Positions 7,188 to 38,081 of a stretch of DNA of 64,000 nucleotides are shown one piece after another. This DNA is from Humidesulfovibrio mexicanus (GTDB lineage: Bacteria; Desulfobacterota; Desulfovibrionia; Desulfovibrionales; Desulfovibrionaceae): the NCBI RefSeq assembly GCF_900188225.1, contig NZ_FZOC01000002.1:368310-432309 (forward strand), given 5' to 3'. The notes under the pieces were generated by a model. That model was not told the DNA's origin, made no database searches, and saw only the letters and a program-made list of their open reading frames with translations. Each line of letters opens with the position of its first letter. The first letter of the stretch is position 1. A program made the position numbers and the translations under genes.

Positions 7188-7278
7188 ATGATTATTGTTG
7201 TTGCAAAACGGGGGAGACTTGCGCACAGTGCCGCCCTGGCGCGTGCGGCAGGGAAGCCGGGCGCCGTGCCGGGCAAAG

Positions 7279-7306
7279 AAAAAGGCCCCGCGCGGAACGC
7301 GGAGCC
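7279..7306 (-). terminator. Terminator of tRNA-His
   Basis: On the minus strand a GC-rich hairpin with 9-base arms (GGCTCCGCG / CGCGGGGCC, one mismatch) is followed by TTTTT. It lies 15 bases past the 3' end of the tRNA-His gene. On the plus strand the same stem has no U-tract, so it probably does not end the selB transcript. Confidence 0.75.
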
Positions 7307-7320
7307 TCGTGCTTCTCAAG

Positions 7321-7397
7321 TGGGGTGAATGAAGGGGCTTGAACCCTCGGCCCCCAGGGCCACAACCTGGTGCTCTGCCAACTGAGCTACATTCACC
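7321..7397 (-). tRNA. tRNA-His (anticodon GTG)
   Basis: The minus strand gives a cloverleaf with acceptor GTGAATG/CATTCAC, T-loop GGTTCAAGCCC, and anticodon loop TTGTGGC, hence GTG for His. The extra G(-1) typical of tRNA-His is encoded at 7397 and faces discriminator C73, an arrangement that identifies this isoacceptor. The CCA end is encoded (7321-7323). The 7188-7278 stretch between selB and its terminator holds no gene I can support. Confidence 0.96.
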
Positions 7398-7413
7398 ACA
7401 AGAGGAAGAATTC

Positions 7414-7440
7414 TTTATACGAGGCCCGCGCGGCGGTCAA
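7414..7440 (-). promoter_or_regulatory. Promoter of tRNA-His
   Basis: On the minus strand TTGACC (7435-7440) is followed after 15 bases by TATAAA (7414-7419). The -10 box is close to consensus and sits 17 bases before the G(-1) of the tRNA. The spacer is short; TAAAGA with a 17-base spacer is the alternative. Confidence 0.6.
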
Positions 7441-7501
7441 GAACAAAATCCGATTATTCCGGGGCGGGAGCGCGATTCCGTCCCAGCACAAAGGAACATC
7501 C

Positions 7502-8755
7502 ATGGACAAGCTCATCATCGAAGGCGGCGTGCCCCTGAAGGGGACCATCACGGTCAGCGGCTCAAAGAACGCGGCCCTGCCCATCCTTACGGCCTGCCTG
7601 CTGGCCAAGGGGCCGGTGCGGCTCACCAACGTGCCGCGCCTGCGCGACATCAACACCACGCTCAAGCTCTTGAACATCCTGGGCTGCGAAACGACCTTCG
7701 AGGGCGATACCGTGACCGCCGAGGTCAAGGGTCTCAAGGCCGAGGCGCCCTACGACCTGGTGAAGACCATGCGCGCCAGCGTGCTTTGCCTGGGGCCGCT
7801 TCTGGGCCTTCTGGGCGAGGCCAAGGTGGCCCTGCCCGGCGGCTGCGCCATCGGCGCGCGGCCCGTGGACCTGCACCTGAAGGCCCTGGAGCGCATGGGC
7901 GCGCGCTTCATGCTCGACTCCGGCTACATCACGGGCATCTGCGGCTCCCTCATCGGCGCGCGCATCATGTTCGACTTCCCCACCGTGGGCGGCACCGAGA
8001 ACCTGCTCATGGCCGCCAGCGTGGCCAAGGGCTGCACCATCCTGGAAAACTGCGCCCGCGAGCCCGAGGTGGTGGACCTGGCCAACTTCCTGAACGCCAT
8101 GGGCGCGCGCATTCGCGGCGCGGGCAGCAGCGTCATCGAGGTTGAGGGCGTGCGCGAGCTGAAGGGCTGCGAGTACCGGGTCATGCCCGACCGCATCGAG
8201 GCCGGCACCTACCTGGTGGCAGGGGCCATCACGGACGGCGAGCTGCGGCTTCTGGACTGCCCTGTGGACGACCTGGACGCGCTGATCACCAAGCTGCGCG
8301 AGATGAACGTCTCCGTGGAGGCGCAGACCGACGGCAGCGTGCTGGTGCGCCGCAACGGCCCGCTGCTGGGCGTGGACGTGACCACCCAGCCGCATCCCGG
8401 CTTCCCCACGGACATGCAGGCCCAGCTCATGGCCCTCATGTGCGTGGCCGAGGGCTCGGGCTCCATCCAGGAGAAGATCTTCGAGAACCGCTTCATGCAC
8501 GTTTCCGAACTGGCCCGCATGGGCGCGCGCATCACGCTCAAGGACCGCACGGCCATGGTGCGCGGCGTGGACAGGCTGGTGGGCGCGCCGGTGATGGCCA
8601 GCGACCTGCGCGCCAGCGCCTCCCTGGTGCTGGCGGGCCTGGCCGCCCAGGGCGTCACCGAGGTGGCGCGCATCTACCACCTGGATCGCGGCTACGAGCG
8701 CATGGAAGAGAAGCTGTCCGCCGTGGGCGCGCGCATCCGGCGCGAGAAGGAATAG
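7502..8755 (+). CDS. murA: UDP-N-acetylglucosamine 1-carboxyvinyltransferase
   Basis: MurA performs the first committed step of peptidoglycan synthesis, adding enolpyruvate from PEP to UDP-GlcNAc in the cytoplasm. The product is 417 residues, the standard length, starting [14 protein letters not shown]. Conserved features are K22 in SGSKNA, the catalytic cysteine C115 in [14 protein letters not shown], and the C-terminal [17 protein letters not shown]. Because C115 is a Cys rather than Asp, the enzyme should be sensitive to fosfomycin by family knowledge. The start ATG is preceded by AAAGGA; a longer open frame upstream runs through the tRNA-His region and is not used. comEC follows after 22 bases. 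Confidence 0.97.
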
Positions 8756-8777
8756 GGCCGGAACCGGGCGGAAGCCT

Positions 8778-11282
8778 GTGGGCGCGGACCGGGACAGCGC
8801 GGGCATGGCCCGGCACGGACTGCTGGCCTGGCAGGCGTACCTGCTGTGTTTCGCAGCCGGGGTCTGGTCCCTGCGGCATCCGCAGGCGGCGTTGGCCTCG
8901 GCCGGGCTTGTGTGGCTGGGGCTGGTCCTGTTTCGCAGACCGGCCTTTGCCTCCGCACTGGCTTCCCTGGCCCTGGCCGGGGCCTGCCTGTTCGTTGGCC
9001 AGCAATACGCCAGCTTCCGGCTGCCGCAAGCCCCATCCCTGCCAGCGGCGCTGGGCGAGACCCGCTCCACGGCGCGGGTTTTCGCCCGCGTGGCCGAGGT
9101 GACGGACAAGCCCTTCGGTCGTCTGGAAATCCTGCTCAAGGACGCCAGGGCCGAATTGTTGCCTGAGCGGAGACGCGGCGGAGACGCTGCCGCCGTGTCC
9201 GCTGCCGCGCCAGAGTCGCAATGGCTGATGCTTCCCGGGCGCATCGCCTGGGACTGGGACGAGCCCGGAGCGCGCCCTGCGCCTGGGCAGAGCGTGGAGG
9301 TCGTGCTGCGTGTGCGGCCCGTGCACGGCTTCGCCAACTTTGGCGGCGCGGATTTCGAGTGGCGCGAGCGGTTGCGTGGCGTGTTCCTGCGCGCCTATAC
9401 GCGCGGGCCGGACATCGAGGCGGTCTGGGGCGAACGCCCGGCCCATGCGTTGTGGGATCTGCGCGAGTCCTTGCGCGGGCGGTTGCTCGCGCTTCTGCCG
9501 GAGACTCCGGGCGGCGCGGTGCTCCTGGGGCTGCTTCTGGGCGACCGGTCGCGCATCGGGCTGGAGGCCACGGAGGATATGCGGGCGGCCGGGCTTTCGC
9601 ACACGCTGGCGCTTTCCGGGCTCAACGTGGTCTATGTGGCCCTGCTGGGCCTGGGGTTGGCTTGGCTTGCCGGGATGGTCCGGCCGGGCGTGTACGTGCG
9701 TATTCCCCGCCAGAAGCTCGCGGTGCTGCTCTCGCTGCCGCTGGTGGCAGCCTATGTGTGGCTTGGCCAGGGCAGCCCCTCGCTGGTGCGTGCGGCGCTC
9801 ATGTACGGATCGTGGGGAATCCTGCTGCTGCTGGACCGGGGTCGCCCCCTGGTGGACGGGCTGTTCCTGGCCGTGGCGCTCATGCTGGTGTGGGATCCGC
9901 TGGCCGTGTACGACCTGGGCTTGCAGATGTCCGTGGCGGCGGTCGCCGGGCTGGCCTTCCTGTATCCCTGGCTCGACGCCCTGGTTCCCCAGGCGCGGGG
10001 GCGCGCTTTGCGCCTGGCGCGGCGGGTTTGGCAGGCCTTGGCCTTGACGCTTTCCGCCAACCTCGCCCTTTTGCCGATCTCCCTCTGGTGCTTCGGAACC
10101 TATCCGCCAAATTTCCTGCTCAACCTGGCCTGGGTGCCTGTCCAGGGTATGCTGGTGCAACTGCCGGGCATGGCCGGGCTTGCGTTGGCGGTTGCGCCAG
10201 GAGCGGAGACCGCGTCCGCCGCCGTCTTGTCCTTCGCCGCGCTGGTCCAGGGCTGGATGCTCGATTGCCTGCATCTGCTGGCCGCGCGGGGCTGGTTTCC
10301 CACCTGGGCCGTGCTGCGGCCCCTGTGGCCCGAGCTGCTCGGCGCGTCGGCTCTCCTTGCAGCGGCGTCGGCCAGCCTTCGGCCGGACAGACCGACGCCC
10401 CCGGCCGCGCTGGCCCTGTGCGGACTGCTTCTTGTCGTCTGGCCCCACGCCTTGCTGGCCCAAGACGAGATGCGCGATGCGGTGCGGCTGTCCGTGCTGG
10501 ATGTTGGGCAGTCCCAGGCCGTTGTGGTGGAGGCCCCTGGCGGCAGGCGAGTGCTCGTGGACGGCGGCGGGGCCATGAGCCCGACCTTTGACATCGGCCG
10601 GTCCGTTGTCGCTCCGGCGCTTGCCTGGGGCAGGCCGCCCAGACTCGACGCCGTGGTCATGACGCATCCGGACGCGGACCATGCCCAGGGTTTGGCCTGG
10701 ATTCTGCGCCATTTTCGCGTTGGGGCGTTCTACACCAATGGCCGCTGGCCGGAGGGACGGCTGGGCCTTGCACTGGACCAGGCCCTTGCCGAGGGCGTGA
10801 ACGCCGGGCGGCTGGCCCCGCGCGTTCTTACCGCCGGGGAGCGTTTGGATTTGGGGGAAGGTGTCGTGCTTGAGGTTCTGCACCCGGCGGACGGATACGC
10901 AGGGCGCAACGCCAACGACGAATCGGTTGTGTTGCGTCTTGTCTGGCGCGGGCAGGGGCTGGCGCTCTTGCCGGGCGACATCCAGCGCGACGGCATCGAG
11001 GCCATGCTGGACGCCGGGGTGGATGCGCGCGCCGCCGTGCTGCTGCTGCCGCACCATGGGTCCAAGTCGAGCCTGTCCGGAATGTTGTACGAAGCCGTTG
11101 CGCCGGACCTGGCGCTGGCGAGCTGCGGCTTTTTGAACCAGTACCGCTTTCCCAACGCGGACGTTGCGGCCGAACTGGCCGGGCGGGGAATTCCCCTCGC
11201 GGCGACGCCGTGGCGCGGAATGCTGCGTCTGGCCTGGGCGGGGCCGGGCCGGGAGTTCGGCCTTACTTCCGCCCGGCCTTGA
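8778..11282 (+). CDS. comEC: ComEC/Rec2-family DNA uptake channel protein
   Basis: An 834-residue polytopic membrane protein of the ComEC/Rec2 family, which in competent bacteria carries transforming single-stranded DNA across the inner membrane. Three parts are visible: an N-terminal pair of membrane helices plus the soluble DUF4131-type domain (to about residue 215), the multi-helix competence domain (about 230-540, including [10 protein letters not shown] and [14 protein letters not shown]), and a C-terminal metallo-beta-lactamase-like domain with [12 protein letters not shown]. The GTG at 8778 is used here; an ATG nine codons later is possible. The 3' end overlaps the converging PAS-GGDEF-EAL gene by 20 bp. 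No other competence gene is in the window, so actual transformation is unproven. Confidence 0.92.
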
Positions 11283-13863
11283 GGCCGTTTCCGTTGTTTC
11301 CGTCGTTTCCGCTCGTGGGGCGGTTCAGGCTGCGCCGCATGTATTCCCATGCCTCCTGGGTGGGCAGGGGGCGCGCGTACAGGTAGCCCTGGGCGTACTC
11401 GCAAGCCAGGCCGCGCAGCAGATCGCGCTGGACTTCGCGTTCCACCCCTTCGGCGATGACCTGCAGTTGGAGGGAGTGCGCCAGGCTGATGATCGCCTTG
11501 ACGATCTCCAGGCCCTCCGGGCCGGTTTCCATGCGCTGCACGAAGGACAGGTCGATTTTGAGGGTGTCCAGCGGGAATTGCTGCAGGCTGCTCATGGAGG
11601 AGTAACCGGTGCCGAAGTCGTCGATGGACAGGGCCATGCCCAGGCTTTTGAGCCTGCGCAGCTTGTCCACGGCGCTTGTTGCGTTGTCCATGATTGCGGT
11701 CTCGGTGATTTCCAGCTTGAGGGCCTGCGGAGGCAGACCGGTTTCCGCGAGCACCGTCTTTACGTCCTCCACAAGGGTTGGGTCGGAGAATTGCCGCGGG
11801 GAGAGGTTCACGCTCATGACCAGTTCGCGGGCATAGGGCGAGTCCGCGCGCCAGCTCATAAGCGTCTGGCAGGCCTCGCGCAGGACCATGAGCCCGATGT
11901 CCACGATGAGGCCGGACTCCTCGGCCACGGGGATGAACTCGCCAGGAGAGATGAGCCCGTTCTGAGGGTGCCGCCAGCGGATGAGGGCCTCGAATCCGTG
12001 CAGGGCGGCGGCGTTGTCCAGTCGCACGATGGGCTGGTAGACCAGGAAGAATTCGCCTCTGCTGATCGCTCCGCGCAGGTCGGTTTCCAGCACCAGCAAT
12101 CGGCTGGCGCGTTCCAGCATGGCCTGGGTAAAGGCCTTGAAGCGGTTGCGCCCGGCTTTTTTGGCTTGGTGCATGGCTACGTTGGCATTGCGGAGCAGGT
12201 CTTCCGGGGTTTCCGCCCCCTGTCCGCCCAGGGTTATGCCGAGGCTTGCGGTGAGCTGGATTTCGTGGCCGCCCAGGGAGAAGGGTTGGCGCAGGGCGTT
12301 TCTGATGCGCTGCACGGCCTGGATGGCCTCGCGCGGGGAAGCGAGTTCTTCAAGCAGGATGACGAATTCGTCGCCCCCGAAGCGCGACACCGTGTCGAAG
12401 GAGCGGATGCTCTTGCGCAGCATGTCGGCCACCGTCACCAGGACCTGGTCGCCGAAAGTGTGGCCCAGGCTGTCGTTCAATATCTTGAAGCGGTCCAGGT
12501 CGAGAAAGATGAGTGAGAAGGAGTGGGCCGTGCGCCTTCGGCTGCGCTCCATGGCTTGCCGGATGCGGTCCAGGCAGAGGGTGCGGTTGGCCAGGCCGGT
12601 AAGCGGATCGTGCAGGGCCAAGTGCCGGAGCTGTATCTCCATTTCCTTGCGGTCGGTTATGTCGCGCAGGCTGATGCGCGTGCCCATGGAGCCCCCGCCG
12701 GAGCCCATGACATCGCGCTTGACCTCGTTGACCCAGCGCAGTGAACCGTTGCGGTGGCGGATGCGGTAATCGAGCGACTCGTCGTCCTTCCCGTGGGCGT
12801 GGAATCGCCGCCAGGCGTCCAGGTCGGCCTGGTGCACCAGGTCCTCCAGCCCGCGAGGATTGTGCAGGAAGTGCTCGCGCTGATAGCCGGTGATGCGTTC
12901 GCAGGAGGGGCTTACGTAGAGCATTTCGCCCGCGGGGCCGATCCAGCATTCCATGCCATGCGTGTACTCCGCCACGATGCGGTGACGGTCCTCGCTTTGC
13001 TGCAAGGCCTGCTCGGTTTGCACCTGGCGGGTGATGTCCACGGCGATTGCCGCCACGCCTGTGATGGTGCGGTTTTGCATGAGCGGAAACTTGGAGACCT
13101 GCAAATGACGCGTTGGGCCGCCGGAGCGCAGGCGCACCTGCTCCTGCACCATGAGGGGCTTGCCCTCCCGTTGGACGTAGGCGTCGTACTCGCGCAGCAT
13201 TGCGGCCACGTCCTCGGGCCAGATGTCCGTGTCGAGCCGACCGATGATCTTCTGCGGGGGCAGTCCCAGGCATTCCCCGAAGGCGGGATTGCAGAAGACA
13301 TAGCGGCCGGACAGATTTTTTATGAAGGCCATGGCCGGAGAGTTTTCCATGAAGGAGGCGAAGAGCTGGCGGCTTTTGTCCAGTTCGGCCTCGATCATCT
13401 GCCGCACGGTGACGTCTCGGGCGATGAGCACGGCGTAGCCCGTGCCCGCGAAGCTGTGCAGGGTCACCGTGATTTCCACGGGCACGCTGTGGCCCTCGGC
13501 GCCGGAAAGGGAGGTGACGATATGCCCGTTGCGGAAGTGCAGATCGCCGGTGGCTTGCAGCGCCCCGGCGTAGCGGGCGGCGATTTCCTGAGGGAAAAAG
13601 CGCGAGATGTGCGCGCCTATGGCCTCGGCCCTGGACAGGCCGAGCATCAGGAGCGCGGTTTCATTCACATCGGCCACGCTCCAGTCGGCGGTGAGGAACA
13701 TGAATATGGCGTCGTTGGCGTGGTCCACAACGGAACGGAAGCGCTCCAGTTCGTCCAGCCTGCGCCGCAGTTCCGGATAATAGCTCTTGGCCATGGAGCG
13801 CTCGCCAAGCCCGATGAGCCTGTCGCGCAGCGAGTCCGGTGCGTTTTTCGGATCAGAGGGCAT
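11263..13863 (-). CDS. PAS-PAS-PAS-GGDEF-EAL cyclic-di-GMP signalling protein
   Basis: An 866-residue soluble protein with no membrane segment. About three PAS domains occupy residues 35-410 (for example [13 protein letters not shown] and [17 protein letters not shown]). A GGDEF domain follows with an intact RFGGDEF near residue 498, then an EAL domain with EALIRWRHP near residue 624 and DDFGTGYSS later. Both catalytic signatures look intact, so it could make and break c-di-GMP; the dominant activity cannot be told. The start ATG at 13863 lies inside the end of the alcohol dehydrogenase gene (11-bp overlap), indicating translational coupling. The 3' end overlaps comEC by 20 bp, tail to tail. 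Confidence 0.95.
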
Positions 13864-30817: not shown

Positions 30818-31318
30818 ATGCTCGTTACTGGCAATGCGCACAAGGTCGGCGCGCACATCGACACCGACGCCATCATCCCGGCCCGCTTCCTGGTCACCAC
30901 AGACGCAGCCGTGCTGGGGTCCAACTGCATGGAGGGCCTGGAGCCCGGCTGGGTCAAACGGGTCAAGAAGAACGACATCATGGTGGCCGATGAGAACTTC
31001 GGCTGCGGCTCCTCCCGCGAGCACGCGCCCATCGCCATTCTTGGCGCGGGCATTCCCGTGGTGGTGGCCAAGAGCTTCGCCCGCATTTTCTACCGCAACG
31101 GTTTCAACATGGGGCTGGTGCTGCTTGAGGTGGGCGACGACATCGCCAAGCTCAAGGACGGCGACCAGCTGGAAGTGGACACCGAGGCCGGGCGCATCAA
31201 GAACCTGAGCACCGGCGAGACCGTGGTCTGCGCCAAGGTGCCCGCCTCCATGCAGGAGCTGCTCGACGCGGGCGGCCTGGTTCCCTATGTCAAGAAACGC
31301 CTGGCTGAAAGGCAATAG
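30818..31318 (+). CDS. leuD: 3-isopropylmalate dehydratase small subunit
   Basis: LeuD forms the swivel domain that completes the LeuC active site. The 166-residue product shows [13 protein letters not shown] near residue 13 and [15 protein letters not shown] near residue 64, the family signatures, with the length of the archaeal/anaerobe short type that matches the short LeuC. The start is preceded by AAGGAG. leuB follows 13 bp later. Confidence 0.96.
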
Positions 31319-31331
31319 AGGATTGGAAACA

Positions 31332-32414
31332 ATGAAAATCTGCGTCATCCCCGGCGACGGCATCGGCAAGGAAATTGTCGCCCAGGCCTTGCGCGTGCTG
31401 GACAAGGTCACCGAGAAATTCGGCACCCGTTTCGAAATCGAGGAAGCGCTCATGGGCGGCGCGGCCATCGACGCCACAGGTTCCCCCCTGCCCGAACAGA
31501 CGGTCGCGCTCGCCCTGGCGGCCGATGCCGTGCTGCTGGGCGCTGTGGGCGGCCCCAAGTGGGACACCCTCGACCCTGCGATCCGGCCCGAGCGCGGGTT
31601 GCTCGGCATCCGCAAGGCTCTGGGGCTTTTCGCCAATCTCAGGCCAGCCAGCCTGTTCCAGGAGCTCAAGCACGCCTGCTACCTGCGGCCGGACATCGTG
31701 GCCAAGGGCATCGACCTCCTGGTGGTGCGCGAGCTCACCGGCGGGGCCTACTTCGGCACGCCCAAGGGGGTGGAAGTGCGTGATGGCGAACGCGTGGGCT
31801 TCAACAACATGATCTACGCCGAGCACGAGATCCGCCGCATCGCCAAGGTGGGCTTCGAGGCCGCCATGAAACGCAGCAAGAGGCTGTGCAGCGTGGACAA
31901 GGCCAACGTGCTGGACGTTTCGCGCCTGTGGCGGGAAGTGGTGCTGGAAGTCGCCCGCGACTACCCGGACGTGGAGCTTTCCCATATGTACGTGGACAAT
32001 GCGGCCATGCAGCTGGTGCGCGACCCCTCGCAGTTCGACGTCATCGTCACCGAGAACCTTTTCGGCGACATTCTGTCGGACGAGGCTTCCGTCATCACCG
32101 GGTCCATCGGCATGTTGCCCTCGGCCTCGCTGGGCGAGAAGAACCCAGGCCTGTTCGAGCCCATCCACGGGTCCGCCCCGGACATCGCCGGGCAGGACAA
32201 GGCCAACCCGCTGGCCACCATCCTGTCCGTGGCCATGCTGCTGCGCTATAGCTCCACGGAGAAGACCGGCGACATGGGGCCCCAGGCCGACGCCATCGAG
32301 CAGGCCGTGCGCAAGACGCTCCAGCAAGGCTATCGCACCGGCGACATCCGCGAAGACGGATGCAAGCTGGTGGGCTGCCAGGCCATGGGCGACGCCGTGC
32401 TGGCCAACCTGTAG
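31332..32414 (+). CDS. leuB: 3-isopropylmalate dehydrogenase
   Basis: LeuB oxidises and decarboxylates 3-isopropylmalate with NAD+. The 360-residue protein starts [16 protein letters not shown], has [11 protein letters not shown] near residue 133 with the substrate-binding Arg/Tyr region, and [19 protein letters not shown] near residue 240, the Mg-binding aspartate motif. The ATG at 32414-side reading frame begins at 31332; a start 15 codons upstream lies inside leuD. It is the last gene of leuACDB, closed by a strong terminator. Confidence 0.97.
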
Positions 32415-32481: not shown

Positions 32482-33348
32482 CTACCAGGCGAAGGGCGGC
32501 TTTTCGCGGAACTCGAAGACGTAGGGGAAGGGCGGCGTGGAGACGAGGTCCACGCGGCGGGCCAGGATGCGGAAACCCGGATTGGTGATGGCCAGCCCTG
32601 GACCATCGCCGCCTTTGGGGGCCTTGTCCGCAAGGTGCTTGTCCGCGCCGTGGAGCGGTTCCAGGCTGCCGAACACCTCCACCCAGTCGCCGTCGCGCAG
32701 GCCGTCCAGTGACTCGCCGTCGGCTCCGCGCACCAGGAAGCGCAAGTCCAGGCTGTCGGCAAGGCAGCACACCACGGCCACACGCCGCAACAGCACATGC
32801 CCATGGGCGTCCAGGCCAGACGAGCGCAGCACCTGCGCGCGCAGGGCGAAGCGCGGCGGGTAGTCTTTGCGGCCCTTGTCCAGCATGATGTACAATTCCG
32901 CAAGGTTCAGGCGCGTGTAGCGCTCGCCGTCAAGCACGGGGCTGGGGTCGGCAGGGGCCTCCTCCTCGGGTGCGGGCATGGGCGCGGAGAGTGTCGCCGG
33001 GGCTTCGCCAGAATCGCCTGAGCCAAAGGGTTCCCTCGCGGCCTGCTCCCAGGCCATGGCGCCGAGGGACAGGAAGGCCAGCAGCACGGCTTGCCGCCAC
33101 AGCCGCGCCGGGGTGGAGGGGCCGGGCGTGGGCCGCAGCACAAGCGCCAATCCGCACAGGCACAGCAGCGCCCCCGCTCCAAAAGTAAGCCCGCTGAAGC
33201 GCGGGTTCAGGAAGTACCAGTACAGGCTTGAGCGCGAGAGCGCCGCGATGAACCCGCCCATGCACAGCAGGCACAGGCCGTCCACGCGGTCCTGAAGGCT
33301 TTGCCGGAAGGCGGAGCGGAATAGCGCCAGTTTTGATGCCTGGCTCAT
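32482..33348 (-). CDS. TIGR03943-family putative permease subunit
   Basis: A 288-residue protein with three or four N-terminal membrane helices (about residues 24-115), an acidic proline-rich linker (AEPS-type, about 125-155), and a C-terminal soluble domain of about 130 residues containing LDAHGHVLLRRVAVVCCLADS. This matches the family annotated as TIGR03943 permease subunit, almost always encoded beside a DUF318-type permease, as here: its ATG overlaps the permease stop (ATGA). Related pairs in Firmicutes are linked to zinc-responsive regulation. The paired cysteines in VVCCLADS are possible metal ligands. Transport direction and substrate are inferred only. Confidence 0.85.
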   Translation of the reverse strand: MSQASKLALFRSAFRQSLQDRVDGLCLLCMGGFIAALSRSSLYWYFLNPRFSGLTFGAGALLCLCGLALVLRPTPGPSTPARLWRQAVLLAFLSLGAMAWEQAAREPFGSGDSGEAPATLSAPMPAPEEEAPADPSPVLDGERYTRLNLAELYIMLDKGRKDYPPRFALRAQVLRSSGLDAHGHVLLRRVAVVCCLADSLDLRFLVRGADGESLDGLRDGDWVEVFGSLEPLHGADKHLADKAPKGGDGPGLAITNPGFRILARRVDLVSTPPFPYVFEFREKPPFAW

Positions 33349-34271
33349 GGCAGTGCTCCGGAAAGGCCAAGGCCCATGGCGAGGAGGTACACCGCCGTCG
33401 CAGGGGCAAGAATGAGCACAAGGGCGATCTTGCGGCGGAACACGGCCAGGAAGGCCGGAATGAGTTTCAAGTCCAGCATGGGGCCGATGGCCAGGAACGC
33501 CAGCAGCGCCGCAGGGGGGAACATGGACAAGCTGGCGGCCACGAAGGCGTCGGCCTCGGAACACACGCTCATGAGCACGGCGGCGAGCATCATGGCGGGC
33601 ACGGCCGTCCACACGCTGCCGGACACGGCCGCCAGCAGCTCCTGCGGCAGAAAGACCTTGAACAGTCCGGCCGCGCATGCGCCCAGGATCAGGAACATGC
33701 CCATGTCCAGGAATTCGCGCCCCGTGCCGCGCAGAACGTCCAGCAGACCCTGCCCGATGGAAGGCCGGGCCTGCTGGTCCGCGTGGGCATGGCAGCACCC
33801 GCAGCCTGCGTCGTGGGCCATGTCCAGGGCTGGCCGCAGGGGGGACTCTGCTCCGGCCGCGCCAAGCGCCCAGCCCAGCATGGCCGCCGGAACCAGCACC
33901 AGGGCCACGCGCCAGGCCACCATCTCCCAACTGCCCTGGAACGCCACCCAGGTGGAGGCCATGGACACCGGATTCACCACCGGGGCCGCCAGCATGAAGG
34001 GGAAGGCCGCGCCCGCTGGAACCCCTTTGCGGATGAGCCGACGCGTCACCGGAACCACGCCGCATTCGCAGGTGGGCAGCAGCAGCCCGGCGAACAGCCC
34101 CAGCGCAATCTGCACGGGCAGGCGCTTGCGCGCCAGACGGGAGAGGGCCTTGTCCCCCACATATACGGCGATGATGGAGGACAAAAGCGAGCCAAGCAGC
34201 AGAAACGGTGCGGCTTCGATGACGATGGAACTGACGATGGCAGCAAACACGGCGAAAGCGCTCTGATCCAT
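33345..34271 (-). CDS. DUF318-type permease (SO_0444/YraQ-like)
   Basis: A 308-residue membrane protein with about eight helices in two related halves. Each half has the acidic/Cys family motif: LLPTCECGVVPVTRRL near residue 65, and VCSEADAFVAASL near residue 246. The middle loop carries GCGCCHAHAD near residue 158, a likely metal-binding patch. The family is proposed to move metal ions or small anions. The ATG at 34271 is used because upstream frame would cross the operator region. It is divergent from znuA across a 106-bp gap holding two palindromes, so both transcripts are probably controlled together. Confidence 0.88.
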   Translation of the reverse strand: MDQSAFAVFAAIVSSIVIEAAPFLLLGSLLSSIIAVYVGDKALSRLARKRLPVQIALGLFAGLLLPTCECGVVPVTRRLIRKGVPAGAAFPFMLAAPVVNPVSMASTWVAFQGSWEMVAWRVALVLVPAAMLGWALGAAGAESPLRPALDMAHDAGCGCCHAHADQQARPSIGQGLLDVLRGTGREFLDMGMFLILGACAAGLFKVFLPQELLAAVSGSVWTAVPAMMLAAVLMSVCSEADAFVAASLSMFPPAALLAFLAIGPMLDLKLIPAFLAVFRRKIALVLILAPATAVYLLAMGLGLSGALP

Positions 34272-34294
34272 GGAAACCTGTTGGGCCTTATGGG

Positions 34295-34341
34295 TTGACA
34301 GGGGTGCAACTTTGTTGCATTTGCTGTGCAACTGAGTTGCA
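34295..34341. promoter_or_regulatory. Tandem palindromic operators between permease pair and znuA-zur
   Basis: Two near-identical 15-bp palindromes, TGCAAC-TTT-GTTGCA (34305-34319) and TGCAAC-TGA-GTTGCA (34327-34341), have centres 22 bp apart, two helical turns. A perfect TTGACA (34295-34300) precedes them, so a znuA promoter would be covered. The layout, between divergent metal genes and beside a Fur-family gene, points to Zur boxes. The regulator identity is inferred. Confidence 0.75.
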
Positions 34342-34377
34342 CCGCTTGGGGTGTAGCCGAAACATGGAGCGACCGCA

Positions 34378-35262
34378 ATGAGAAAGATGTTGGCCATGCT
34401 GGCTGTGTTGACGATGGTTTCCGCGGCGCCTGCCCTTGCCGCGAGTCTGGGGGTGGCCGTGGGCGTGGCCCCGGTGGCGCACTTCGCCAAGAAGGTCGGC
34501 GGCGATCTGGTGTCCGTCACCCTGCTTGTGCCGCCGGGAGCGGATGCGCATACCTATGAGCCCAAGCCTTCGCAGATGCGCGCCCTGTCCGCTTCGGCCG
34601 TGTATCTGTCCACCGGATTGGAGTTCGAAGCGGCCTGGGAGTCCCGGCTTCGGTCGGCGAATCCCAAGATGCTGGTGACGAAAATCGACGCGGGGTTGAA
34701 GAAGCTGCCCATGCCGGAGGGACATGGGCATCATGGGCACGAGGCCGAGGCCGGGCATCATCACCATGACGAGTTGGACCCGCATGTGTGGGTTTCTCCT
34801 GCCGAGGTGCGCCACATGGCCGCAGCCATCGCCCAGGCGTTCTCCAAGGCCGATCCGTCCAACGCCAAGGCGTATGCGGCCAATCTTGCCGCGTTCCAGA
34901 AGGAGATAGACGAGCTTGACGGCCAGCTCAAGGCGCTGTTCGCAGAAGTTCCGGCGAGCCAGCGCGGCTTTCTGGTGTTTCATCCCGCCTGGGGCTACTT
35001 CGCCCGTGACTATGGCTTGACCCAGATCGCCATTGAGTTCGAGGGCAAGGAGCCGACGCCCAAGCGTTTGGCCGCCATTGTGACCCAGGCCAAGGCCAAG
35101 GGCGCATCGGTCATCTTCGTGCAGCCGCAGATGAGCCAGCGCACGGCCGGTGCCATCGCCACGGCGGTGGGCGCGCGGCTTGTGACGGCCGATCCCCTGG
35201 CCGAGGATTGGGGAGCGAATCTGCTTGCCGTGGCCAAGAGGTTTCGGCAGGCCTTGAAGTAG
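34378..35262 (+). CDS. znuA: Zinc ABC transporter substrate-binding protein
   Basis: A 294-residue periplasmic metal-binding protein. Signal peptide residues 1-22 end in PALAA. Zinc-ligand histidines are expected at H58 (GADAHTYEP), H136 (DPHVW) and near 202 (VFHPAWGYF), with the last acidic ligand in the C-terminal domain. Between them lies a His-rich loop (about residues 116-130, GHGHHGHEAEAGHHHH), typical of zinc rather than manganese binders. The start follows GGAGCG. znuB and znuC are not next to it; the partner ABC permease must be elsewhere, or the divergent permease pair is functionally linked. zur follows 15 bp later. Confidence 0.93.
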   Translation: MRKMLAMLAVLTMVSAAPALAASLGVAVGVAPVAHFAKKVGGDLVSVTLLVPPGADAHTYEPKPSQMRALSASAVYLSTGLEFEAAWESRLRSANPKMLVTKIDAGLKKLPMPEGHGHHGHEAEAGHHHHDELDPHVWVSPAEVRHMAAAIAQAFSKADPSNAKAYAANLAAFQKEIDELDGQLKALFAEVPASQRGFLVFHPAWGYFARDYGLTQIAIEFEGKEPTPKRLAAIVTQAKAKGASVIFVQPQMSQRTAGAIATAVGARLVTADPLAEDWGANLLAVAKRFRQALK

Positions 35263-35277
35263 CGCTTGGGAAGGACG

Positions 35278-35685
35278 ATGGACGCTCAGGAACTGCTGTC
35301 GCGCGCAGGCCTTGCCGCAACGGACAAGCGGCTGCTGGTGGTACAGGCCATGGCCGAGGCGGGGCGGCCGGTGACTCCCCAGGAATTGTTGGCCGGGCTT
35401 GGCGCGGGGCTGAACCGTGTCACCCTCTACCGCATTCTGGATCTTCTGGTGGAGCATGAACTGGCCACACGTCACAACGCCGGCGAGCGGGCCTTCCGTT
35501 ATTGCCTGCGCACCGGGCCCGCGGGGCACGCGCACTTCACCTGCTCGGTTTGCGGGCAAACCCGGTGCATTGATTCCCGGTACCTTGCCGAGGGGCTGGA
35601 GGCGTTGCTTGCGCGGCTGCCCATGCGTGTCGATTCCGTGGATATCCGCTTACTTGGCGTGTGTGGCGACTGCCAACCGAACTGA
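35278..35685 (+). CDS. Fur-family regulator, probably Zur
   Basis: A 135-residue Fur-type winged-helix repressor. The DNA-binding domain occupies about residues 1-80 with VTLYRILDLLVEHELA, and the C-terminal dimer domain has HAHFTCSVCGQTRC and a closing CGDC, giving the two CxxC pairs of the structural zinc site. Position directly after znuA and downstream of the tandem palindromes argues for a zinc-responsive Zur that regulates its own operon. The ATG at 35278 follows GGAAGGAC; a TTG four codons upstream is less likely. Ferric or peroxide sensing cannot be ruled out by sequence alone. Confidence 0.85.
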   Translation: MDAQELLSRAGLAATDKRLLVVQAMAEAGRPVTPQELLAGLGAGLNRVTLYRILDLLVEHELATRHNAGERAFRYCLRTGPAGHAHFTCSVCGQTRCIDSRYLAEGLEALLARLPMRVDSVDIRLLGVCGDCQPN

Positions 35686-35716
35686 GCCCCGGTTTCAGTG
35701 GCTCCGGGGCGGTTTT
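35686..35716 (+). terminator. Terminator of znuA-zur
   Basis: GCCCCGG (35686-35692) pairs perfectly with CCGGGGC (35704-35710) across an 11-base loop, followed by GGTTTTG. It starts directly after the zur stop codon. The U-run is short. Confidence 0.7.
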
Positions 35717-36602: not shown

Positions 36603-38081
36603 TTACAGCGCGGGCATTGCCGCTGCGGGAAGCCCCGCTTCCAGAGCGTGCGCGGCCGCAAGCATTGGCGCCTCATCGAAGGCACGGCCCGTGAGCTGCA
36701 GGCCCACCGGCATTCCCGTGTCGCGTCCAAGGCCGACGGGCAGGCTCATCCCCGGCAGCCCGGCCAGGTTGGTGCTGATGGTGAAGATGTCCATCAGGTA
36801 CATCTGCAAGGGGTCGGAGGTCATTTCGCCCACCTTGAAGGCCGTGGTCGGGCACACAGGGCCGGCCAGCAGGTCGCACTGGGAAAGCGCGGCCTCGAAA
36901 TCCCGGCGGATGAGGCGGCGCACCTGGGCGGCTTTGCGGTAGTAGGCGTCGTAGTAGCCGGAGGAGAGCACATAGGTGCCCAGGATGATGCGGCGCTGCA
37001 CCTCGTCGCCAAAGCCTTCGGTGCGACTCCTTACGTACATGTCCATGAGGTCCGCAGGATTCTCGCAGCGGCGGCCGTAGCGCACGCCGTCGAAGCGCGC
37101 CAGGTTGGAGCTGGCCTCGGCCATGGCGATGACGTAGTAGGTCGCTATGGCGTACTGCGAGAGCCGCAGGTTCACGGGAACGGTCTTGGCGCCAAGCTCC
37201 TGGGCGACTTTCAGGGATGCGCCGCAGGCCTCGGCCACCTCTGGCGCAAGGCCCTTGTCCCAGTATTCGGCGGGCAGACCGATGGTCAGCCCCTTGAGGC
37301 TGCCGTTGCCGCCCAGTGCGGAGAGGTAGTCGGGCACGGGCCTGTCCACGCTGGTGGAGTCCTTGGGGTCGTGCCCGGCGATGACCTGCAGCAGGCGCGC
37401 CGCGTCCTCCACGCTGCGGGCCATGGGGCCGATCTGGTCCAGGGACGAGCCGTAGGCCACCATGCCGAAGCGCGACACCCGGCCATAGGTGGGCTTGAGG
37501 CCCACGATGCCACAGAAGCTGGCGGGCAGGCGGATGGAACCGCCGGTATCGGTGCCCAGCGCGCCGTAGCACTGGCCCGCCGCCACTGTGGCGGCGGAGC
37601 CGCCGCTGGAGCCGCCTGGAACCCGATTCGTGTCCCAGGGATTTTTGGTGGCGAAGAAGGCCGAGTTTTCCGTGGTGGAGCCCATGGCGAACTCGTCCAT
37701 GTTGGCCTTGCCCAGAAGCACGGCCCCGGCGTCCTTAAGGCGCGTCACAGCCGTGGCGTCGTACGCCGGGCGGAAGTTCTCCAAAATTTTTGAGCCGCAG
37801 GTGGTGGGCGCGTCCCTGGTGGCCAGCACGTCCTTGACCACAAGCGGCACGCCCCACAGAGGCTTGCTCGGATCAGGTCCGCTTTCGTCCATGCTTTTGG
37901 CCAGGGCGCGGGCTTCTTCGGCCTGCACGGAAATGAGGGCGCGCACCTTGGGTTCGGTGGCCTCGATGCGCGCGAGCGCGGCCTCCGTGACTTGGGTGGC
38001 GCTGACGGTCGTGTCCGCGAGGGCCTTGCGTACCTCGGAGAGGGTCATGTGCGTGAGTTCGGGCATTGTGTTCGGGTCCAT
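36603..38081 (-). CDS. gatA: Asp/Glu-tRNA amidotransferase subunit A
   Basis: GatA is the glutaminase/amidase subunit of GatCAB, which turns misacylated Glu-tRNA(Gln) or Asp-tRNA(Asn) into the correct aminoacyl-tRNA. The 492-residue protein has the amidase-signature triad K83 (VVKDV), S158 (PGGSSGGSA) and S182 (GTDTGGSIR), with normal spacing. The start ATG at 38081 is used; an ATG five codons inward is equally possible because neither has a strong ribosome site. gatC precedes it by 20 bp. gatB is not in the window. Confidence 0.96.

Follow-up and report, generated by a model that had tools for sequence, protein, structure and literature searches.

We analysed a four-gene locus in a 64,000-nucleotide stretch of the Humidesulfovibrio mexicanus genome (contig NZ_FZOC01000002.1, here C2; the whole stretch is called the window). 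In this locus, genes for an ArsP_1 permease and a DUF1980/TIGR03943-like partner protein (together, the permease pair) are divergent from znuA and a Fur-family regulator gene, most likely zur. The locus probably represents a split Desulfovibrio-type ZnuABC-Zur system, the ZnuCB half of which is encoded on another contig, combined with a zinc-controlled accessory transporter pair that would aid zinc acquisition or handling under starvation. This reading is carried by the gene families at the locus, two operators that are unique in the genome, a homologous znuCB situated elsewhere, and the recurrent linkage of permease pairs with zinc genes. The locus illustrates a zinc ATP-binding cassette (ABC) importer split in such a way that the binding protein alone appears to be still zinc-controlled.

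Location of the znuCB genes

We searched the H. mexicanus genome with the PF00950 profile and found a znuB gene on contig C8 (240.6 bits), another on C4 (183.9 bits) and a weak match on C3. On C8, znuB overlaps a znuC gene (PF00005), and no PF01297 gene was found at this znuCB locus. The genome holds the periplasmic PF01297 protein as well as the cognate ABC-3 permease and ATPase of a ZnuABC importer, and with znuA on C2 and znuCB on C8 these genes do not form one operon. The statement of a preliminary description of this locus that znuB and znuC are missing holds for the local stretch between the flanking genes leuB and gatA, where neither was seen in the window, and fails for the genome as a whole.

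Nine relatives (G016, G023, G024, G027, G028, G029, G040, G045 and G058) carry znuA-znuC-znuB-zur in a single run, and the C8 ZnuB is 58–66% identical to the operonic ZnuB of relatives at loci bearing the palindrome described below. An intermediate arrangement was observed in G030, which has the permease pair, the palindrome and znuA-zur at one site and the palindrome with znuC-znuB at another. Because the C8 znuC-znuB genes have no binding protein of their own and are homologous to the znuCB of the intact operons of relatives, homology identifies the locus as a split ZnuABC-Zur system, from which ZnuBC is missing only locally.

We then surveyed 59 genomes from the same genus, family and order, that of H. 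mexicanus among them. ZnuB homologues (E ≤ 1e-20, counting the weak ones in G017, G019 and G020) were present in 54 of them, and so were ZnuA homologues (E ≤ 1e-15). Among the 15 same-genus genomes, ZnuA was found in 14 and ZnuB in 13; the genomes with misses, G005, G008 and G010, are 95, 86 and 81% complete, respectively. At six same-genus znuA loci the permease pair is absent, and znuA-zur is nonetheless kept. Together with the C8 znuCB genes devoid of a binding protein, these distributions lend no support to the earlier proposal of a route not based on ZnuBC. The genus forms one clade in both the ZnuA and the ZnuB trees; this agreement is weak evidence of a partnership, because plain vertical descent gives the same picture.

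Operators in the permease-znuA gap

The strongest feature of the locus, absent from the preliminary description, is a set of two palindromes of the form TGCAAC-N3-GTTGCA, both within the 106-bp gap between the permease gene and znuA. Nowhere else in the 3.52-Mb assembly is TGCAACNNNGTTGCA matched exactly; the pattern read backwards gives no match, and the next-best matches, at two places, have one mismatch. The exact palindrome occurs in 23 of the 59 genomes (H. mexicanus included) and the reversed control pattern in 3. We examined 25 loci around the matches in the other 22 genomes; at 22 of these loci the palindrome adjoins a gene for ZnuA or ZnuC, the exceptions being L061, L064 and L067.

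The palindromes agree with the published ZUR_D box, a 17-bp sequence (ATGCAACNNNGTTGCAT) reported in 2004 upstream of znuABC-zur in two Desulfovibrio genomes (Rodionov 2004, PMC545781). The adjoining znuA and Fur-family gene are likewise common to the window and the Desulfovibrio znuABC-zur_D operons. The window differs in that znuCB is elsewhere, a divergent permease pair is added, and two palindromes are present compared to one per operon in Table 5 of that report.

TTGAC stands just before the left palindrome at all 14 same-genus znuA loci, and a second palindrome follows at 22–23 bp at all 14, several of these being degenerate and that of G003 interrupted by N. Because of this arrangement, both palindromes appear to be so placed that a repressor bound to them would prevent transcription of znuA. 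Counting exact matches alone, two palindromes are seen in the pair-bearing genomes and one in most pair-less genomes. The second palindrome was tried as a mark of the permease pair and dropped; with mismatches allowed, every one of the 14 same-genus loci has one, pair or no pair.

Another element, TAGCYGAAAC, lies at a constant distance of 24 bp ahead of the znuA start in 8/8 same-genus loci with the pair and was found in 0/6 without it (one of the latter N-masked). It may be a znuA leader or a piece of the permease promoter; no clear −10 element was found on the permease side of the gap. G012 has TAGCYGAAAC, yet its ZnuA groups with those of the pair-less genomes.

We infer that Zur represses both divergent units by binding between them. 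With ample zinc, it would occupy both palindromes and keep both znuA-zur and the permease pair off; when zinc is scarce, both would be expressed, and ZnuA would most likely deliver zinc in trans to the ZnuCB encoded on C8. The ZUR_D box, this type of regulation and the precedent for a permease described below for Bacillus anthracis are already known.

The permease pair and its association with zinc genes

The four genes are real and lie as the preliminary description had placed them, as judged from the open reading frames (ORFs) and Pfam matches (Table 1). The GCGCCHAHAD loop of the permease and the His-rich loop of ZnuA were also found, and the span earlier given to the locus (32482–35716) takes in all four genes, although its end lies 31 bp beyond the stop of the Fur-family gene. 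The permease belongs to ArsP_1 (PF03773), which we take to be the former DUF318. The partner gene lies directly downstream of it, its start overlapping the permease stop by 4 bp (ATGA). The partner protein scores below both curated cut-offs (TIGR03943, 41.2 against 88.8 bits; PF21537, 21.2 against 25.9 bits). The DUF1980/TIGR03943 assignment is nevertheless sound, because the profile matches and the position after the permease are joined by a conserved Cys-Ala-Asp motif. In a TIGR03943 search of the H. mexicanus genome, this gene was the sole match. Two further ArsP_1 permeases are encoded in the genome (G000:C4:189432-190307 and G000:C1:216794-217663).

Table 1. Features of the zinc locus and its surroundings (positions in the window)
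Feature	Position	Strand	Evidence or remark
DUF1980/TIGR03943-like membrane subunit (YcgQ/ScfB-like)	32482–33348	-	TIGR03943 E 1.2e-10, below cut-off
ArsP_1 permease (YcgR/ScfA-like)	33345–34271	-	PF03773 170.6 bits (cut-off 32.3)
TTGACA, −35-like, 4 bp before left palindrome, facing znuA	34295–34300	+	putative promoter element
Left ZUR_D-type palindrome TGCAACTTTGTTGCA	34305–34319	.	exact match, one of two in genome
Right ZUR_D-type palindrome TGCAACTGAGTTGCA	34327–34341	.	exact match; 22 bp from left one, start to start
TAGCCGAAAC element, 24 bp before znuA start	34354–34363	.	same-genus conservation
znuA, periplasmic metal-binding protein with His-rich loop	34378–35262	+	PF01297 246.6 bits, E 3.8e-73 (cut-off 29)
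Fur-family regulator gene, most likely zur (ZUR_D)	35278–35685	+	PF01475 36.9 bits, E 4.5e-9 (cut-off 23.1)
leuB, flanking gene	31287–32414		
gatA, flanking gene beyond small ORFs and a tautomerase-like gene	36603–38081		

By its Pfam and NCBIfam matches, the pair is a divergent relative of YcgRQ/ScfAB. YcgRQ (B. subtilis), ScfAB (S. pyogenes) and SMU.746-747 (S. mutans) are, as here, two-gene units that combine a permease of 8 helices with a partner that has few; in the accessible part of PMC5584981 they are described as of unknown function and no link to zinc is given, and the partner in the window differs in falling below the model cut-offs. The family is widespread and matters for the fitness of a pathogen in the host (PMC5584981).

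We scanned named genomes with a permease profile and kept the best 80 of at least 590 relatives. Genes at these 80 loci were located by six-frame hidden Markov model searches, as calling of the longest ORFs misses genes in GC-rich DNA; the models were built partly from the same 80 loci and agreed with Pfam for 10/10 sampled proteins. A DUF1980-type match was found on the permease strand at all 80 loci, within 200 bp in 76. A ZnuA, ZnuB or CobW-type gene lies within ∼8 kb of the permease at 34 of the 80 loci (30/76 when four same-genus loci are left out), whereas by our estimate, which assumes a few such genes per genome, a ∼17-kb stretch would hold one by chance in a few percent of cases. By type, ZnuA or ZnuB was present at 23 loci, a CobW-type gene at 16 and a Fur-family gene at 18. 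The linked loci comprise 18/51 from Bacillota, 12/18 from Desulfobacterota and other delta groups, 2/3 from Planctomycetota, 1/1 from Bacteroidota, 1/6 from Actinomycetota and 0/1 from others, and at 24 of the 34 a zinc gene lies no more than 500 bp away (the ZnuA match of L213 is a fragment). The same families also ranked top in an unbiased clustering of the neighbouring genes. These counts indicate a strong link of the permease pair to zinc genes, as far as gene neighbourhood can tell.

We also searched a separate set of 296 genomes from the phylum, and 17 of these have TIGR03943 matches. With G000 (H. mexicanus) and G004 left out, a ZnuA gene lies within 2 kb of the match in 9 of the remaining 15 and not in 6. 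In five of these nine (G091, G106, G226, G306 and G341), znuA, permease and partner follow one another on the same strand and znuB is at another site; the short loci of G184 and G238 gave no permease match. Within the 59-genome set, 15 genomes have a partner homologue; in 12 of them (eight same-genus genomes, G018, G019, G023 and G030) a ZnuA-family gene lies no more than 6 kb away, which is not the case in G024, G028 (a 5.4-kb contig) and G029. The same-genus permeases fall into a single group, and hence the pair would have entered the genus once or been moved within it.

A few arrangements are worth recording. L151 (G019:C70, 8292–12680) is an apparent operon znuC-znuB-znuA-permease-partner on one strand, with an ATPase and a ZnuB of the type found on C4. 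In L230 and L232, from a Bacillus and a Rossellomorea genome, two permease-partner pairs stand tail to tail close to a CobW-type gene. At seven Clostridium loci (L234, L238, L240, L244, L256, L272 and L282), the pair comes immediately after two genes for CobW-type GTPases, and ZnuA is absent.

The common operators at the locus and the recurrent linkage in several phyla support the preliminary description in grouping the pair with ZnuA and the regulator, as what looks like a single unit of zinc control. No link of the DUF1980 family to zinc across phyla was found in the openly licensed literature, a search outside which most subscription papers fall. The recurrent placement beside zinc genes hints at a job for an uncharacterised two-part transporter; YcgRQ/ScfAB relatives beside ZnuA, ZnuB, CobW-type and Zur-type genes in several phyla raise the testable question of whether zinc is moved, and in which direction.

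A Bacillus-type Zur box precedes the permease at 11 of the 51 Bacillota loci compared to 52 of 4109 control windows, and Zur control of the Bacillota permeases therefore seems enriched, not general. In B. anthracis, two boxes ahead of an operon with an ArsP_1 permease (BAS1632) are bound by Zur, and znuA is set apart as in the window, there from znuBC-zur (PMC6336718). The two cases differ in phylum and box sequence, and the box region of the permease is common with yciC in B. anthracis and with znuA here.

The structure model of the permease (mean predicted local distance difference test score, pLDDT, 91.1) consists of two halves that share their order of helices and also show sequence homology to each other (hhalign probability 93.7, E 1.9e-7). 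We aligned the permease with those of 47 of the 80 loci. Residues C68, C70, C237 and D241 are present in all 48 rows, E69 in 47 and E239 in 45; these Cys/Glu/Asp motifs sit at the corresponding break of each half and could bind a transition metal within the membrane. The central loop has at least two His or Cys residues in 42/48 rows. MleN and TRAP SiaQM took the first, second and fourth ranks among the structural matches, none with E ≤ 0.001, and the permease profile had 0 sequence matches to solved structures at E 0.1. The partner model (mean pLDDT 89.0) has three predicted helices and a C-terminal domain, the PDB structural matches of which include several OB-fold proteins; from loop charges, this OB-type domain is probably periplasmic. 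C195 and D198 are conserved in 49/49 partner rows and C194 in 41, and sequence searches against solved structures gave chance-level matches only. With these features, the pair would be a two-subunit secondary transporter, in which a two-half permease is joined by a partner with a probably periplasmic OB-type domain that carries the invariant Cys and Asp, and it may serve under starvation as a second inner-membrane zinc route or as a helper to ZnuABC.

Alternative roles of the pair and of ZnuA

Several observations weigh against a split ZnuABC-Zur system with an accessory pair that aids zinc acquisition. The regulator reaches only 19.4 bits on the NCBIfam Zur model PRK11639 (cut-off 167); this model is presumably of the E. 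coli type. G005 and G008 have no ZnuB match, although G008 has ZnuA and the pair. No palindrome was found near the C8 znuCB at up to 3 of 14 mismatches, and this half looks Zur-independent here; because of this, ZnuA may be the zinc-controlled part of the split pump. Likewise, among the 13 same-genus znuCB loci mapped, a palindrome was present only at that of G004. At 46 of the 80 permease loci there is no ZnuA, ZnuB or CobW-type gene nearby, and at 40 of the 51 Bacillota loci the Zur box is missing at 5 mismatches. Furthermore, B. subtilis ycgRQ is reportedly under extracytoplasmic function (ECF) sigma factors (PMC5584981), the closest NCBIfam model of the permease is the SO_0444 Cu/Zn efflux family, and exporters activated by Zur exist, as Zur activates zinc export in P. 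aeruginosa (PMC9827704).

The last two points would fit a protective exporter, serving either as a zinc safety valve or as a pump to remove unwanted metals (Cd, Cu) taken up while the importer for zinc is active, with Zur repressing the pair along with znuA or activating it at high zinc. SO_0444 (NF033936) is ArsP_1-type like the permease here and is required by Shewanella under stress from Zn or Cu (PMC3219624), and in B. anthracis both boxes are upstream of the predicted −35 of the permease, for which positive control was proposed (PMC6336718). However, the permease is far under the cut-offs of both the SO_0444 model (E 3e-19; 69.4 against 300 bits) and the SaoE efflux model (33.3 against 325 bits), the genes that recur beside the pair serve uptake and allocation (ZnuA, ZnuB, CobW-type), and the pair follows znuA on the same strand in the five genomes named above. 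We consider an exporter possible but rather unlikely, and favour a zinc-starvation importer or import helper; both zinc as the substrate and the direction of transport are inferred.

The same five genomes, having znuA directly followed by permease and partner with znuB elsewhere, would also suit a ZnuA that is the binding protein of the pair itself. The pair would then be an ATP-free, TRAP-like metal importer in which zinc passes from ZnuA to the periplasmic domain of the DUF1980-type subunit and enters through the permease. In agreement with this, 14 of the 21 permease loci with a ZnuA match have no ZnuB match in the fetched stretch, and the TRAP and MleN folds are the top, weak structural matches of the permease. 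ZnuCB is, however, kept in most pair-bearing genomes, and we regard this arrangement as unlikely.

It is very unlikely that the pair is unconnected with metal transport and owes its place near zinc genes to another cause, such as acid or envelope stress or another solute. The S. mutans relatives are linked to acid stress and biofilm (PMC5584981), and this together with the ECF control of ycgRQ and the many permease loci lacking a zinc gene nearby would speak for such a role. Against it stand the zinc-gene neighbours, most of them no more than 500 bp away, at loci from Bacillota, Desulfobacterota, Planctomycetota, Bacteroidota and Actinomycetota, the conserved Cys/Glu/Asp motifs in the membrane and the His/Cys residues of the central loop in most aligned rows.

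Finally, C4 carries a second ABC system of adjoining binding protein, ATPase and permease (L022 = G000:C4:40000-58000, 7194–12377), and its own PF01297 protein answers to a part of what the preliminary description had named as decisive against it, namely a complete znuABC elsewhere with its own ZnuA, along with no zinc response of the pair. That this set is the true zinc importer, leaving the window ZnuA as a stand-alone zinc buffer or a partner of the pair only, is highly improbable, as the C4 binding protein is far lower on PF01297 (55.4 against 246.5 bits), the C4 ZnuB is 30% identical to the C8 ZnuB, and relatives hold homologues of the window ZnuA and the C8 ZnuCB in one operon. In the surroundings of this system, of which only the ABC parts were checked by profile, a very His-rich ORF faces the znuB end, and a methyltransferase-like ORF and a large TonB-dependent-receptor-like ORF lie beside it.

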